From assembly GCF_013266755.1 (NCBI RefSeq), contig NZ_JABRWJ010000002.1:310001-374000 (forward strand): a stretch of 64,000 bases of DNA, read 5' to 3'. This DNA comes from Pseudaquabacterium terrae (GTDB lineage Bacteria > Pseudomonadota > Gammaproteobacteria > Burkholderiales > Burkholderiaceae_C). Numbering within the stretch: position 1 is the stretch's first letter; each line of letters opens with the position of its first letter. The notes beneath the pieces were generated by a model. It saw only the letters and a list, made by a program, of their open reading frames with translations. It was not told where the DNA came from and searched no databases. Positions 48,357-55,574 of the stretch are shown one piece after another. The position numbers and the translations under genes are program-made.

Positions 48357-48386
48357 GTGTTTCGCAACTTGATCAAGGAGATCGTC

Positions 48387-48836
48387 ATGGCAACTGCGAA
48401 GAAGGCTCCGGCCAAGAAGGCTGCAGCGAAGAAGCCGTCGGCAGCCAAAAAGGCGCCGGCCAAGAAGGCCGCACCGGCCAAGAAGGCCGCACCGGCCAAG
48501 AAGGCCGCACCGGCCAAGAAGGCCGCCGCGAAGAAGGCGCCCGCGAAGAAGGCACCGGCGAAGAAGGCCGCGCCGGCGAAGAAGGCGGCACCGGCCAAGA
48601 AGGCCGCCGCGAAGAAGGCGCCGGCCAAGAAGGCGGCACCGGCGAAGAAGGCGGCTGCGAAGAAGGCGGCACCGGCGAAGAAGGCGGCTGCGAAGAAGGC
48701 CCCGGCGAAGAAGGCTGCCGCGAAGAAGGCGCCGGCTTCCCCCGCTGCCCCTGCGGCGGCCCCTGCAGCGCCTGCGGCGAAAACCGCGCTGAGCCCTGCC
48801 GCCGCGTGGCCGTTCCCGACCGGGAACAAGCCGTAA
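48387..48836 (+). CDS. Histone H1-like Lys/Ala-rich DNA-binding protein
   Basis: 149 residues from ATG 48387 with AAGGAG upstream. The first ~125 residues are tandem [13 protein letters not shown] repeats, basic and like the tail of histone H1, AlgP or bacterial HctB-type proteins. The last ~28 residues are Ala/Pro-rich, ending WPFPTGNKP. It probably binds DNA or RNA non-specifically. The DNA repeat (AAGAAGGC units) is prone to copy-number change. A strong terminator follows. Confidence 0.85.
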
Positions 48837-48858
48837 GCGGCGTGCGTTAGCCCTTGAA

Positions 48859-48886
48859 GAACCCGGCCTCGTGCCGGGTTTTTCTT
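48859..48886 (+). terminator. Terminator after the H1-like gene
   Basis: AACCCGGC-CTCGT-GCCGGGTT followed by TTTCTTCT is an eight-base-pair stem with a T-rich tail, 23 nt past the stop. It may also stop transcripts arriving from the opposite strand. Confidence 0.85.
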
Positions 48887-48896
48887 CTCTGTTGGC

Positions 48897-49991
48897 TCAG
48901 GCGCTCTTCACTCGATCTTCCAATTGATCGAGGTTCAACTCCAGCATGCGCTGGATCTCACGGTGTCTTGCAAGCGCGTGCGACGCGAGCATCGAACAAT
49001 CCTTCAGGTACCGCTCGCCCATGCGCTCCTGGACCTGGGCGAGTCGGGCCAGCAGGTAGGCGAGGTCATCCGCTTCGAGCTCGGCATGGGATGCAGCCGC
49101 GGCTTGCAATGCGAATTCGCTGACGTGGTCGAACAGCTCGAGATGCACCAGGCACCACGCCTGATCGACCGCCACCAGAGGCCGAAAGCGAGGCGCCAAC
49201 TCTTTCTTGTCGATCGAGGCGAGCATCATCAAGGCTTCATGGAACTTGCCTTCGACCGCCAGCAACTCGCCCTGCAGCATCGGCACCATCAGGCGAAGTG
49301 ACTCGGTGCCGATGGCGGCGTCGTAGTTGAATGCCGAGGCCGCCTCCATCGAGGCCTGTTTCACCTCGGCCGACATCGGATTGCCCAAGGCATCCGCCAG
49401 GCGCACATTGGCCGTGCGATAGGCGGCCATGTTGTGCATCAATGCGCTCATCGTTGCGCCGTCGCCCTCGGCGGTGGCGTGCCGGCGTGCCCGCTCGTAC
49501 CAGGGGCGCGCCTTCTTGAAGCTGCCCGTGAAGTGGAATGCATCGGCGAGCACCAGTGACGCCCGGGCACGGGCCTGGTGGTCGTCCTCCGGCGCCTGCG
49601 TCAACGCTTCCTCGATGAAGCGCACCATCGAGTCGTAGCGGCTGTCGTTGAAATCGATGAGGGCCATCCACGCCGCGCTGCACGGCCATGCGCGCGTGAC
49701 CTTGAACGTCGCCGCCAATCCGTACGCACCGCGAAAGCGGTCGCAGGCGGCCGTCGAGCGCATCTGGAAGTAGTGCAGCATGCCCTCGGCCAGCATCAAC
49801 CAGCAGGCGACCTCCGGATCGATGCGGTTGCCGAAGTGAGCCTTGACGCTGTCCATCCACTTCATTGCCGCGTCGACCTGGCCTTGCCGCGCGAAGTGCG
49901 AGGCCGCCCGGCAGACGTCGCGCGCCCAGGACACGCTGTCGGTGCTGGTTCGAATGCGCTTGTCGAGTTCCGCCAACAGGATCGAGCCCAT
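48897..49991 (-). CDS. TPR-like helical protein, tandem paralogue 3
   Basis: 364 residues from ATG 49991 (MGSILLAELDKRIR), chosen because it aligns with both paralogues; a TTG at 49997 is in frame. It is predicted all-helical with TPR-like helix pairs (ARASLVLADAFHFTGSFKKA RPWYERARRHA...). No signal peptide, membrane helix or catalytic motif. It shares most residues with the two upstream copies, including a near-invariant block FKKARPWYERARRHATAEGD followed by GATMSALMHNMAA. It is the most diverged copy at the C-terminus. The ATG is 2 nt past the stop of copy 2. Function unknown; a protein-binding scaffold is inferred. Confidence 0.72.
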   Translation of the reverse strand: MGSILLAELDKRIRTSTDSVSWARDVCRAASHFARQGQVDAAMKWMDSVKAHFGNRIDPEVACWLMLAEGMLHYFQMRSTAACDRFRGAYGLAATFKVTRAWPCSAAWMALIDFNDSRYDSMVRFIEEALTQAPEDDHQARARASLVLADAFHFTGSFKKARPWYERARRHATAEGDGATMSALMHNMAAYRTANVRLADALGNPMSAEVKQASMEAASAFNYDAAIGTESLRLMVPMLQGELLAVEGKFHEALMMLASIDKKELAPRFRPLVAVDQAWCLVHLELFDHVSEFALQAAAASHAELEADDLAYLLARLAQVQERMGERYLKDCSMLASHALARHREIQRMLELNLDQLEDRVKSA

Positions 49992-49993
49992 CG

Positions 49994-51112
49994 TCAATTC
50001 CCTGCCGCGGGTGTGAGGTAGTCCTTCATGCGTGCGTCGAGCTCATCGAGCTTGCCTTCGAGTGCGGCCTGGGCACGGCGGTGCTTCGCCAATGCGCGAG
50101 TTGCCAGCTCCGAACAGTCCTTCACATACTGCCGATCCATGCGTTCCTGAGTCCTGGCGAGCCGGGCATACAGGTACGCCAAGTCGTCGGTTTCCAGCTC
50201 GGTGTCATCGACACGCGCGGCCTCGAGCGCGAATTCGTCGACGTGCTCGAAGATCTCCAGCTGCACGAGACACCATGCGCGGTCCACTGCAACCAGCGGG
50301 CGAACGCGCTGCGGCAGGCACTTCGCATCGATCGAGGTCAACATCATCAACGCATCGTGAAACTTGCCCTGCACGGCCAACAGCTGTCCCTGGAGCATCG
50401 GCGCGCTCTCGCGCAGCCACGACGCCGTGCCGACAGCCGCGTCGTAGTTGAATGCTGACGCCGCTTCCATCGAAGCCTGCTTCGCCTCCGCCGGCATCTG
50501 GTCGCCGAAGGCATCGGCCAGGCGCACATTGGCCGTTCGGAATGCAGCCATGTTGTGCATCAGCGCGCTCATCGTCGCGCCGTCGCCTTCGGCGGTGGCG
50601 TGCCGGCGCGCGCGTTCGTACCAAGGCCGCGCCTTCTTGAACGTGCCGGCGAAGTGGAAGGCATCGGCCATCACCAGCGACGCACGCGCGCGGGCCTGGT
50701 GGTCGTCCTCCGGCGCCAGCGTCAGCGCCTCTTCGATGAAGCGCAGCATCGAGTCGAAGCGGCTGTCGTTGAACTCGTTGAGCGCCATCCACGCGGCACA
50801 AGACGGCCGAGCGCGGGCCGCATCGAATGCCACGGCGAGGCCGTAGGCACCACGGAACAAGTCGTGCGCGGTGCCCGGGCGCACCTGGAAAAAGTGCAGC
50901 ATGCCTTCGCCCAGCATCAGCCAGCACGCGACTTCCGGATCGATGCGCTTGCCGAAGTGGCGCTTGACGCTGTCCATCCATTTCAGCGCCACGTCGACCT
51001 GGCCTTGCCGGGCGTAGTGCGATGCCGCGCGGCAGACGTCGCGTGCCCAGGAGACGCTGTCCGAACTGGCCCGGATGCGCTTGTCCAGCTCGCTCAACAG
51101 GATCGATACCAT
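49994..51112 (-). CDS. TPR-like helical protein, tandem paralogue 2
   Basis: 372 residues from ATG 51112 (MVSILLSELDKRIRASS). Same architecture as its neighbours: N-terminal block DSVSWARDVCRAASHYARQG, about five or six helix pairs, and a charged, probably coiled C-terminal helix (KHRRAQAALEGKLDELDARM). It is close to paralogue 1 by eye, with differences concentrated around residues 75-115 and 285-330. It sits between the other two with 2-nt gaps on both sides, so the three are one transcription unit. Function unknown. Confidence 0.72.
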   Translation of the reverse strand: MVSILLSELDKRIRASSDSVSWARDVCRAASHYARQGQVDVALKWMDSVKRHFGKRIDPEVACWLMLGEGMLHFFQVRPGTAHDLFRGAYGLAVAFDAARARPSCAAWMALNEFNDSRFDSMLRFIEEALTLAPEDDHQARARASLVMADAFHFAGTFKKARPWYERARRHATAEGDGATMSALMHNMAAFRTANVRLADAFGDQMPAEAKQASMEAASAFNYDAAVGTASWLRESAPMLQGQLLAVQGKFHDALMMLTSIDAKCLPQRVRPLVAVDRAWCLVQLEIFEHVDEFALEAARVDDTELETDDLAYLYARLARTQERMDRQYVKDCSELATRALAKHRRAQAALEGKLDELDARMKDYLTPAAGN

Positions 51113-51114
51113 CG

Positions 51115-52230
51115 TCAGCCGCCCATCGACGCAGTGAGCTGATCCTTGATGCGCAGCTCCAGCTGATCGAGCTTCGCCTCGAGCGCGGCTTGGGCGTCGC
51201 GATGCCGAGTCAAGGCGCGCGCGGCCCGCTCGGAACAGTCTCTCACGTACTGCTTGCCGGTCTGCTCCTGCACACGGGCGAGTCTCGCGAACACGTACGC
51301 GAGGTCATCCGTTTCCTGGTCGATCTCATTGGCACGCGCCGCTTCGAGCGCAAACTCATCGACGTGCTCGAATATCTCGAGCTGGACCAGGCACCAAGCT
51401 CGGTCGGCAGCCACGAGTGGACGCTCGCGAACCGGTAGGTACTTCGTGTCGATCGAGGTCAGCATCATTAGGGCGTCGTGAAACTTGCCGTGCACGGCCA
51501 GCAACTGGCCTTGCAGCATCGGCACCATCAGTCGCCAGGACTCGGTCCCAACGGCCGCGTCGTAGTTGAACGCCGACGCCGCCTCCATCGCAGCCTGCTT
51601 CGCCTCTGCCGGCATCTCGCTGCCGAAGGCATCGGCCAGCCGCACGTTCGCCGTGCGGAATGCGGCCATGTTGTGCATCAGCGCGCTCATCGTCGCGCCG
51701 TCGCCTTCGGCCGTGGCGTGCCGACGCGCTCGCTCGTACCACGGCCGCGCCTTCTTGAAGGTTCCCGCGAAATGGTACGAGTCGGCCAGCACCAGCGAGG
51801 CGCGTGCCAGCGCCTGATGGTCGTCCTCTGGTGCGCGCGTCAGCGCCTCCTCGATGAACCGGATCATCGAGTCGTAGCGACCGTCATTGAATTCGATGTG
51901 CGCCATCCACGCGGCGCTGCAGGGCCGCGCACGCACGGTGTCGAAGGTGGCGGCCAGGCCGTAGGCGCCGCGGAAGCGGTCGTGCGCGTCGATCGAGCGC
52001 ATCTGGAAGTAATGCAGCATGCCCTCGGCCAGCATCAGCCAGCAGGCCACTTCCGGATCGATGCGGTTGCCGAAATGGCGCTTGACGCTGTCCATCCATT
52101 TCAGCGCCGCGTCGACCTGGCCTTGCCGCGCGAAGTGCGATGCCGCGCGGCAGACATCGCGGGCCCACGACACGCTGTCCGGGCTGGTTCGAATCCGTTT
52201 GTCGAGCTCAGTCAGCAGTATCGAGACCAT
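51115..52230 (-). CDS. TPR-like helical protein, tandem paralogue 1
   Basis: 371 residues from ATG 52230 (MVSILLTELDKRIRTSP), first of the three copies and 41 nt downstream of purC. It contains the conserved cysteine-bearing segments WARDVCRAASHFARQG and DPEVACWLMLAEGMLHYFQ, then TPR-like helices and a coiled C-terminal helix. Nothing suggests export or enzymatic activity. It is probably read through from purC, since no terminator or clear promoter lies between. Similar TPR-like modules can sit beside GGDEF signalling domains, but none is present here. Function unknown. Confidence 0.72.
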   Translation of the reverse strand: MVSILLTELDKRIRTSPDSVSWARDVCRAASHFARQGQVDAALKWMDSVKRHFGNRIDPEVACWLMLAEGMLHYFQMRSIDAHDRFRGAYGLAATFDTVRARPCSAAWMAHIEFNDGRYDSMIRFIEEALTRAPEDDHQALARASLVLADSYHFAGTFKKARPWYERARRHATAEGDGATMSALMHNMAAFRTANVRLADAFGSEMPAEAKQAAMEAASAFNYDAAVGTESWRLMVPMLQGQLLAVHGKFHDALMMLTSIDTKYLPVRERPLVAADRAWCLVQLEIFEHVDEFALEAARANEIDQETDDLAYVFARLARVQEQTGKQYVRDCSERAARALTRHRDAQAALEAKLDQLELRIKDQLTASMGG

Positions 52231-52271: not shown

Positions 52272-53177
52272 CTAGGGCGCCAGCAACTCCAGCGCGGCGC
52301 GGTAACGGTCGGCGGTCGTCTGCGCAATCTCCGCGGGCATCTCCGGTGCCGGCGCCCGCTTGTCCCACAGCCTCCCGTCCACGGTCGCCGACTCTAGCCA
52401 GTCGCGCAGGAATTGTTTGTCGAAGCTCGCGGGATTGACGCCTTCCTGATAAGACTCCAGGGGCCAGAAGCGCGACGAATCCGGCGTCAGCACTTCGTCC
52501 ATCAGCGTCAGCTGCCCGTGCTCGTCGAGGCCGAACTCGAACTTGGTGTCGGCAATGATGATCCCGCGCGACAGCGCATAGGCCGCGGCCTCGCTGTACA
52601 GGCGGATCGCCGTGTCGCGCACCTGCTCGGCGAGCGGCTGGCCGATCAGCTCGACGGTGCGCTCGAAGCTGATGTTCTCGTCGTGTTCGCCGGCCTCGGC
52701 CTTGGTGGCCGGCGTGAAGATCGGCGCCGGCAGCCGGCTCGCATTGCGCAAGCCCGGCGGCAGGGCGACGCCGCAGACGCGCCCGTCCTGCTGGTACTCC
52801 TTCCAGCCCGAGCCGGCCAGGTAGCCGCGCACCACGGCCTCGATCGGCAGCGGCTTCAGCCGCTTGACCAGCATCGAGCGGCCGCGCACCTGATCGACTT
52901 CGTCGGCGGCGACGACACTCTCCGGCGCGTCGCCCGTCAGGTGGTTCGGCACGACGTGGCCGAGCTTGTGAAACCAGAACAGCGCCATGCGCGTCAGCAG
53001 TGCGCCCTTGCCGGGAATCGGCTGGCCCATCACGACATCGAAGGCCGAGATGCGGTCCGACGCGACCATCAGGATGCGGTCGTTGCCGACGGCGAAGTTG
53101 TCGCGCACCTTGCCGCGTGCCAGCAGCGGCAGCGAATGCAGGCGGGTCTCGAAAACGGTGGTCTCGGCGGTACTCAT
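52272..53177 (-). CDS. purC: SAICAR synthase (phosphoribosylaminoimidazole-succinocarboxamide synthase)
   Basis: 301 residues from ATG 53177 ([15 protein letters not shown]). This is the longer PurC type: [76 protein letters not shown] and [14 protein letters not shown]. It joins aspartate to CAIR in purine synthesis. In relatives purE and purK usually follow purC; here the TPR-like triplet occupies that position. Confidence 0.95.
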
Positions 53178-53228
53178 GGGATGCTCGCAAGGAAAGGAAA
53201 TCGCGCCCGGATTGTGCCGCCCGGGCAC

Positions 53229-53253
53229 AAAAAAGCCCGCCGGCGGGCGGGCT
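53229..53253 (-). terminator. Terminator of fba
   Basis: On the minus strand AGCCCGCC-CGCC-GGCGGGCT forms an eight-base-pair stem followed by six T. It lies 24 nt past the fba stop and upstream of purC, so purC needs its own promoter or readthrough. Confidence 0.88.
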
Positions 53254-53276
53254 CGTCGCAGCGGAAGATCAGCGCT

Positions 53277-54536: not shown

Positions 54537-55574
54537 ATGGCCCGCATCGCCCTCAGCGACCTCACGCCCTGGATCACCGAAGCCGTGCTTGCGCATCCGC
54601 AGGACCTGCCGGCTTACCTGTGCCAGCGGCTTTCGATCAGCCGCACCAGCGCGCGCAACCAGCTGAACAAGCTGGTCGAGGCCCAATGGCTGGCGCGCGA
54701 CGGTGTCTCGCGCAAGGCCCACTATCGGCCCGGCGCGCTGCGCCAGGTGGTGCGCCGCTACCCGCTGCAGGGGCTGCAGGAAGACCTGCCCTGGGTGCAG
54801 GACTTCGCCGGCCGCTTCGAGCTCAAGGCCAACGTCGCGCGCATCGCGCAGCACGTCTTCACGGAGCTCTTGAACAACGCCATCGACCACTCCGGTGGCT
54901 CGAGCGTCACGGTGTCGATGCGGCAGACGCCGACGCAGCTGCAGCTGCTGGTCTCGGACGACGGCCGCGGCGTCTTCAACACCGTCGCCGAGCGCTTCAA
55001 CATCACCGACCCGACGGTCGCGATGCTCGAGCTCGCCAAGGGCAAGCTGACCAGCCAGCCCGATGCGCACACCGGCCGGGGCCTTTTCTTCAGCGCCAAG
55101 CTGGCCGACATCTTCGACCTGCATGCCAACGACGCGGCCTTCCAGCAGCGCGAGTGGCAGCGTGACCAGTGGTGGCAACGCAGCCGCCCGGCCTGCCGCG
55201 TCGGCACCTCCGTCTACGTCGCGATCTGCGTCGACACCGAGCGCACGCTGGACAACGTGCTGCACCGCTACAGCCTCGACGGCGCGGGCTACGGCTTCGA
55301 ACGCACCGTCGTGCCGCTGAAGCTGATCACGCAGACGCAGGCCGGACTGGAGTCACGCGCGCAGGCGCGGCGCGTCGCCTCGCGGCTGACGCAGTTCCGC
55401 CGCGTCGAGCTCGACTTCGAAGGCCTGGCCGACGTCGGCCATGGTTTCACCGACGAGCTCTTCCGCGTTTTCGGCGCACAACATCCCGAGCTGCAGCTGG
55501 TGCCGGTGAACATGGCGCCGCGCGTCGCGGCCATGATCGGCAGCGTGCGCGAGGCCTTGCCCGTCGCGGCTTGA
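54537..55574 (+). CDS. wHTH + GHKL ATPase + STAS-like (DUF4325) regulator
   Basis: 345 residues. Three parts: a winged-helix-type HTH (about 10-65, LPAYLCQRLSISRTSARNQL), a GHKL/HATPase_c fold with N-box ELLNNAIDHSGG (from 110), G1 DDGRGV (about 141) and G2 GRGLFFS (about 180), and a C-terminal DUF4325 STAS-like domain (about 260-335, RVASRLTQFRRVELDF, then ADVGHGFTDELFRVF). There is no phospho-acceptor histidine or receiver domain. It combines anti-sigma-kinase-like and antagonist-like folds with DNA binding in one chain. It is encoded against the flanking glycolytic genes. Target unknown. Confidence 0.82.
   Translation: MARIALSDLTPWITEAVLAHPQDLPAYLCQRLSISRTSARNQLNKLVEAQWLARDGVSRKAHYRPGALRQVVRRYPLQGLQEDLPWVQDFAGRFELKANVARIAQHVFTELLNNAIDHSGGSSVTVSMRQTPTQLQLLVSDDGRGVFNTVAERFNITDPTVAMLELAKGKLTSQPDAHTGRGLFFSAKLADIFDLHANDAAFQQREWQRDQWWQRSRPACRVGTSVYVAICVDTERTLDNVLHRYSLDGAGYGFERTVVPLKLITQTQAGLESRAQARRVASRLTQFRRVELDFEGLADVGHGFTDELFRVFGAQHPELQLVPVNMAPRVAAMIGSVREALPVAA

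Follow-up and report, generated by a model that had tools for sequence, protein, structure and literature searches.

Three tandem genes for TPR-like proteins behind purC in Pseudaquabacterium terrae, with shared changes at conserved residues

In Pseudaquabacterium terrae, three similar genes for TPR-like proteins stand in tandem behind purC. The TPR gene of this species is ordinary in its place and kind, and it is unusual in its copy number and in the changes that its copies share at conserved residues. Comparison of the sampled genomes indicates that the family is lineage-specific and fast-evolving, occurring in about a third of the genomes sampled from the GTDB family of the window; here, the window is the whole stretch of DNA analyzed, which is 64,000 nucleotides long (contig NZ_JABRWJ010000002.1, positions 310,001 to 374,000). 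The family is apparently unstudied, and a literature search on it, judged partly by titles and the beginnings of abstracts, found no study.

On the minus strand of the window, purC, the gene for SAICAR synthase (52272..53177; profile SAICAR_synt, E 2.2e-75), is the first gene of a presumed unit. T1 (51115..52230, minus strand, 371 aa) starts 41 nt after the purC stop codon and is followed by T2 (49994..51112, minus strand, 372 aa) and T3 (48897..49991, minus strand, 364 aa from the ATG at 49991), the last of which has a shorter C-terminal tail. The T1-T2 and T2-T3 spacers each consist of the two bases CG, from TGA to ATG. An ATG was chosen as the start of both purC and T3, where the automatic ORF calls were a GTG at 53228 and a TTG at 49997, respectively, the latter overlapping the end of T2. 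The pairwise protein identities among T1-T3 are 81, 79 and 76%, which is far beyond chance, and the tandem arrangement of similar genes with 2-nt gaps described in the initial annotation is thus confirmed. Because the copies differ at 19–24% of residues, an assembly artefact was rejected. In the rest of the 8.04 Mb genome, the family profile gives weak matches of at most 21 bits (E 6.5e-4 or worse), which indicates that T1-T3 are the sole copies.

A terminator-like stem was found by the terminator scan between fba and purC (53233..53254, minus strand), and another, with a T-rich tail on the plus strand, between the end of T3 and a convergent gene (48856..48884, plus strand). On the minus strand from purC through the end of T3, the scan gave no terminator-like site, and purC, T1, T2 and T3 are presumably read as one transcript. 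The flanking genes purC, fba, pyk, nrdA and nrdB were identified by profile. The gene convergent with T3 (48357-48836, plus strand) encodes a lysine/alanine-rich histone-H1-like protein (Pfam HC2), and a similar stretch comes after the tandem TPR genes of Aquabacterium humicola. In this genome, as in many relatives' loci, pyk and fba are separated by a gene (54537-55574 in the window, plus strand) with a weak MarR-like match, a histidine-kinase-type ATPase and DUF4325. An Rfam scan of the window gave one tRNA.

The description of the products as TPR-like helical proteins of no known family also holds. TPR_12 (PF13424) matches the mid-part of T1-T3 with E-values from 1.7e-7 to 1.2e-9, and the scores of 38.3, 38.7 and 31.8 bits for T1, T2 and T3 lie above the curated cut-off of 30.1. 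The same model is matched by 24 of the 38 family members, and the Pfam sequence models recognize about one to two TPR units per protein. The MalT-like TPR region (PF17874) covers about residues 106-201 with 30.9, 41.4 and 30.9 bits, under its cut-off of 45, with the T2 match reaching E 1.4e-10; it is matched at E ≤ 0.001 by 11 of the 38 members. The AlphaFold2 model, computed from a seven-row alignment, is all-helical with 17 helices in series, the last of 39 residues (mean pLDDT 86.6, pTM 0.84). Searches of Pfam, NCBIfam, PHROGs, PADLOC and solved structures gave no named family spanning the whole protein. A close relative of solved structure was rejected, since T1 alone gives three matches at E 0.12 or worse; with the family profile, the matches are a designed protein at 5.6e-7 and others at E 0.0065 or worse. 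A phage, plasmid or defence origin was likewise rejected, as PHROGs and PADLOC gave no match to T1-T3, and a tblastn search of T1 against plasmids and phages gave none.

With a profile of 38 members, the family was matched in 92 of 299 genomes sampled from the window's GTDB family and in 41 of 141 genera, with scoring limited to six candidates for each genome, and it was not found in the remaining 207. Among the 92, G140 and G224 have distant, scattered relatives alone, and G275 contributes just a fragment at the end of a contig. When 369 genomes were drawn from across the class, the window's own genome was the only match; by the listing, two others belong to the window's family, which leaves up to 366 negatives from other families. 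Mapped onto a purC tree with 63 of 64 rows (one was dropped), the presence of the TPR gene needs 3 changes, compared to 17.9 in shuffles, and the strongly supported branches force only one. One origin with few losses is the simplest account of this tree.

The position of the gene was determined from 99 loci of 99 genomes. These are 86 of the 89 matching family genomes, counted with G000, G140 and G224 set aside and fetched with G021, G030 and G075 left out, together with 13 more genomes of the window's genus. In 96 of the 99 loci, a TPR gene directly follows purC and shares its strand. The gap between them was estimated at −49 to 124 nt, with a median of 9, in the 95 of 96 loci where it is measurable (an earlier estimate from 42 loci was −3 to 130, median 18), so that no gene lies between the two. 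The three remaining loci (G094, G195 and G269, of one genus) have the order TPR-purE-purK, with a gap of 28–54 nt to purE-purK and with purC elsewhere; in the two of them that reach far enough, nrdA-nrdB lies ahead of the TPR gene. The link to purC or purE-purK is therefore kept in all 99 fetched loci. The initial annotation had placed T1-T3 where purE and purK usually follow purC, and this was not borne out, because the same TPR gene occupies that place in the 96 loci. A replacement of purE/purK by the TPR genes was rejected, as the TPR genes are in their usual place and the purE/purK block is elsewhere. As that annotation had advised, purE and purK were sought in the rest of the genome and were found about 23 kb from purC, from contig position 385929 onward and outside the window, where a thioredoxin-TPR gene adjoins them.

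Downstream, the first recognized gene is one for a thioredoxin-TPR protein, in convergent orientation, in 56 of the 99 loci, nrdB in 16, purE in 6 and fba in 1; the other 20 have no recognized gene within the fetched stretch. We take the thioredoxin-TPR protein to be the CnoX/YbbN co-chaperone. In the 16 loci followed by nrdB, the TPR gene is still with purC, and purE-purK lies outside the fetched stretch. Three of the purC-linked loci that lack the thioredoxin gene have purC, TPR, purE and purK in one co-oriented series, with TPR-purE gaps of 45–96 nt. The purE gene is in view in 60 loci, and in 54 of these it comes after the convergent thioredoxin-TPR gene. In the window's genus, nrdB-nrdA comes next in the loci showing a next gene, and the thioredoxin-TPR gene does not adjoin. 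Of the 21 purC loci from TPR-less genomes, L098, L102 and L111 were read further, and in each of them purC is followed by the thioredoxin-TPR gene, which suggests that the TPR gene was inserted between a convergent pair. Rearrangement around the purC unit is common: nrdA-nrdB lies ahead of purC or the TPR gene, co-oriented, in L046, L130, L132, L136 and L167, and convergent behind the unit in the window's genus instead.

A survey of relatives, which had been recommended in the initial annotation, indicates that a single copy is usual. Among 21 genomes of the genus, one has three copies, one has two, 16 have one and three have none. The extra copies are confined to the window's species and Aquabacterium humicola (G143, two copies). 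In three single-copy genomes (G305, G313 and G314), the match carries one internal stop. The zero-copy drafts G306 and G312 are also without purC, and purC of G308 lies at a contig end, so these absences may be assembly gaps. No other true tandem pair was found in the 99 fetched loci, where the double matches in L141, L156 and L157 come from a single gene in pieces or from a second reading frame. In L156 (G206), one in-frame stop interrupts the purC-linked TPR gene, which may reflect decay there. Distant paralogues away from purC occur in two other genera, g91 (G091, G193 and G267) and g140. At locus L121 (3300-6410), such a paralogue stands 51 nt behind a PAS-HisKA-HATPase-receiver hybrid kinase, and at L122, one adjoins a small gene, presumably ppnP.

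The value of dS is about 0.9 among T1-T3, 1.06–1.58 between T1-T3 and the A. humicola copies, and 2.2 between the two A. humicola copies. For the other genes of the window in the same species pair, it is 0.22–0.60, as determined from 28 ORFs, purC and fba, after exclusion of T1-T3 and of seven shadow-like ORFs (dN/dS > 0.7). These values suggest that the copies are probably not recent. However, dS cannot date the duplications, since it is high in single-copy pairs too: in the pair L039-L041 of the genus, dS is 1.97 for the TPR gene and 0.27 for purC, and most of the listed single-copy pairs are elevated, L034-L035 being an exception. In the tree, the three copies of the window form a clade with weak support (43/83), and constrained trees were not rejected (AU p 0.58, 0.43, 0.11 and 0.39), so that the trees are compatible with more than one account of whether the two species share the duplications.

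The values of dN/dS between the T1-T3 pairs are 0.12, 0.15 and 0.19 (Nei-Gojobori), in agreement with the proposal in the initial annotation that the reading frames are retained by selection. Decay into pseudogenes, named there as grounds against it, was looked for and rejected, as the copies are intact, dN/dS is 0.12–0.19, and, of the 33 residues that reach at least 90% conservation among 33 rows of relatives (the thirty-fourth such column being a gap), 30 are unchanged in all three. At the other three conserved positions, T1-T3 are altered alike, as R4I, R88G and A290V, and both A. humicola copies also read I4, G88 and V290. In an alignment of 100 rows, which excludes rows below 150 bits, this combination is restricted to the five tandem copies, and outside them I4 occurs in 0 rows, G88 in 1 and V290 in 1. 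R4 and R88 are kept in all 16 single-copy rows of the genus. Because the changes are common to all five tandem copies, they probably preceded the amplification, and a functional shift would then probably have come before the additional copies. The sites that differ among T1-T3 are mostly variable in the family (Mann-Whitney p 7e-7). The copies diverge most in the last 40 residues, where 25 sites differ, and have zero differences in helix 158-175.

As a tentative reading, which we regard as possible rather than probable, the protein may be a cytosolic TPR adaptor that is expressed with purC and acts on PurK-PurE-PurC or on purine-linked regulation. It would be made in the cytosol from one transcript with purC, and would serve as a protein-binding adaptor for the CAIR/SAICAR segment (PurK, PurE and PurC) or for a partner reporting its state. 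In an ancestor of the window's species and A. humicola, R4, R88 and A290 would have been altered and the gene amplified; the copies might be kept because they supply more of the altered adaptor, or because their divergent C-terminal parts serve slightly different partners. The adaptor reading is favored by the retention of the TPR gene beside purC or purE-purK through rearrangements, together with the central position of PurK, PurE and PurC in the E. coli two-hybrid interaction network, as reported in a 2024 review (PMC10912719). Distance correlations do not support it. Among 31 genomes, the partial correlations of the TPR protein are −0.10 with PurE, −0.10 with PurK, 0.23 with PurC and 0.20 with Pyk, so that the PurC value is hardly above that of Pyk, and the highest is 0.33 with the thioredoxin-TPR protein; the median distance is 1.14 for the TPR protein compared to 0.26 for PurC. 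The distant paralogues away from purC in two other genera also count against it, and the absence from 207 of 299 family genomes indicates that purine synthesis does not generally depend on the gene.

Nearly as likely is a TPR adaptor or ligand sensor for non-purine signalling, which would ride on the purC transcript for steady growth-linked expression. The initial annotation had suggested a signalling or an envelope process. An envelope role gained no support in this analysis, and for signalling there are weak hints: the MalT-like similarity, below the Pfam cut-off though reaching 1.4e-10 in T2 and shared by 11 of 38 members at E ≤ 0.001, and the histidine kinases found close to distant paralogues in other genera. 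In G091, 51 nt separate the paralogue from the hybrid histidine kinase ahead of it, and a kinase lies within about 1 kb of the paralogue at one locus each in G140 and G224, although an opposite-strand gene intervenes in G140 and, by rough gene calls, the other paralogue loci of these two genomes have no adjoining kinase. The TPR matches are moreover generic, and in all 99 fetched loci the main family stays linked to purC or purE-purK, which speaks against a signalling role for T1-T3.

An accessory protein quality-control factor working with the neighbor-encoded thioredoxin-TPR co-chaperone seems quite improbable. The convergent neighborhood in 56 of 99 loci and the top correlation of 0.33 agree with such a partnership, but the thioredoxin-TPR gene looks like an older neighbor, being behind purC in the three TPR-less loci read, and in the window's genus it is not beside the TPR gene, which is followed there by nrdB-nrdA in the loci showing a next gene. 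It is also unlikely that the amplification is functionally meaningless, with a fast-evolving accessory gene that was repeatedly duplicated in tandem and exchanged, and whose copies have not yet been lost. The fast evolution of the family and the extra copies in just 2 of 21 genus genomes are consistent with this; against it stand the intactness of all three copies, their dN/dS far below 1 and the dS of about 0.9 between copies, above the 0.22–0.60 of other genes, an argument weakened by the elevated single-copy pairs.

If the purine link of the adaptor is functional, the family would provide a simple genetic handle on whether bacteria use a dedicated adaptor for the PurK-PurE-PurC steps, which is now debated on the basis of two-hybrid data (PMC10912719). 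A more far-reaching version, which we consider doubtful, is that a lineage-specific TPR solenoid could be a dedicated PurK-PurE-PurC scaffold or regulator in one Burkholderiaceae (GTDB) lineage. It would then be a separately encoded component of a bacterial purinosome, and would have diversified here into three versions after loss of a conserved binding face (R4, R88). Even without a purine role, the family offers a natural experiment, in which single-copy relatives can be compared with an amplified, altered version.

Compared to known systems, T1-T3 resemble TPR repeat proteins (PF13424 and its clan) in the above-cut-off motif and the all-helical model, and differ from them in having no named full-length family and in matches that, in the searches here, are confined to their own GTDB family. 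They resemble the MalT-like TPR region by the weak match over about residues 106-201; unlike MalT-like regulators, they give no match to an ATPase or a LuxR-type DNA-binding domain, and PF17874 stays below its cut-off. The CnoX/YbbN-type protein, as encoded next to purE in the window's own genome, has a thioredoxin domain with TPR_20 and TPR_19, whereas T1-T3 have no thioredoxin match; both contain TPR, and the two are encoded side by side, in convergent orientation, in 56 of the 99 loci.
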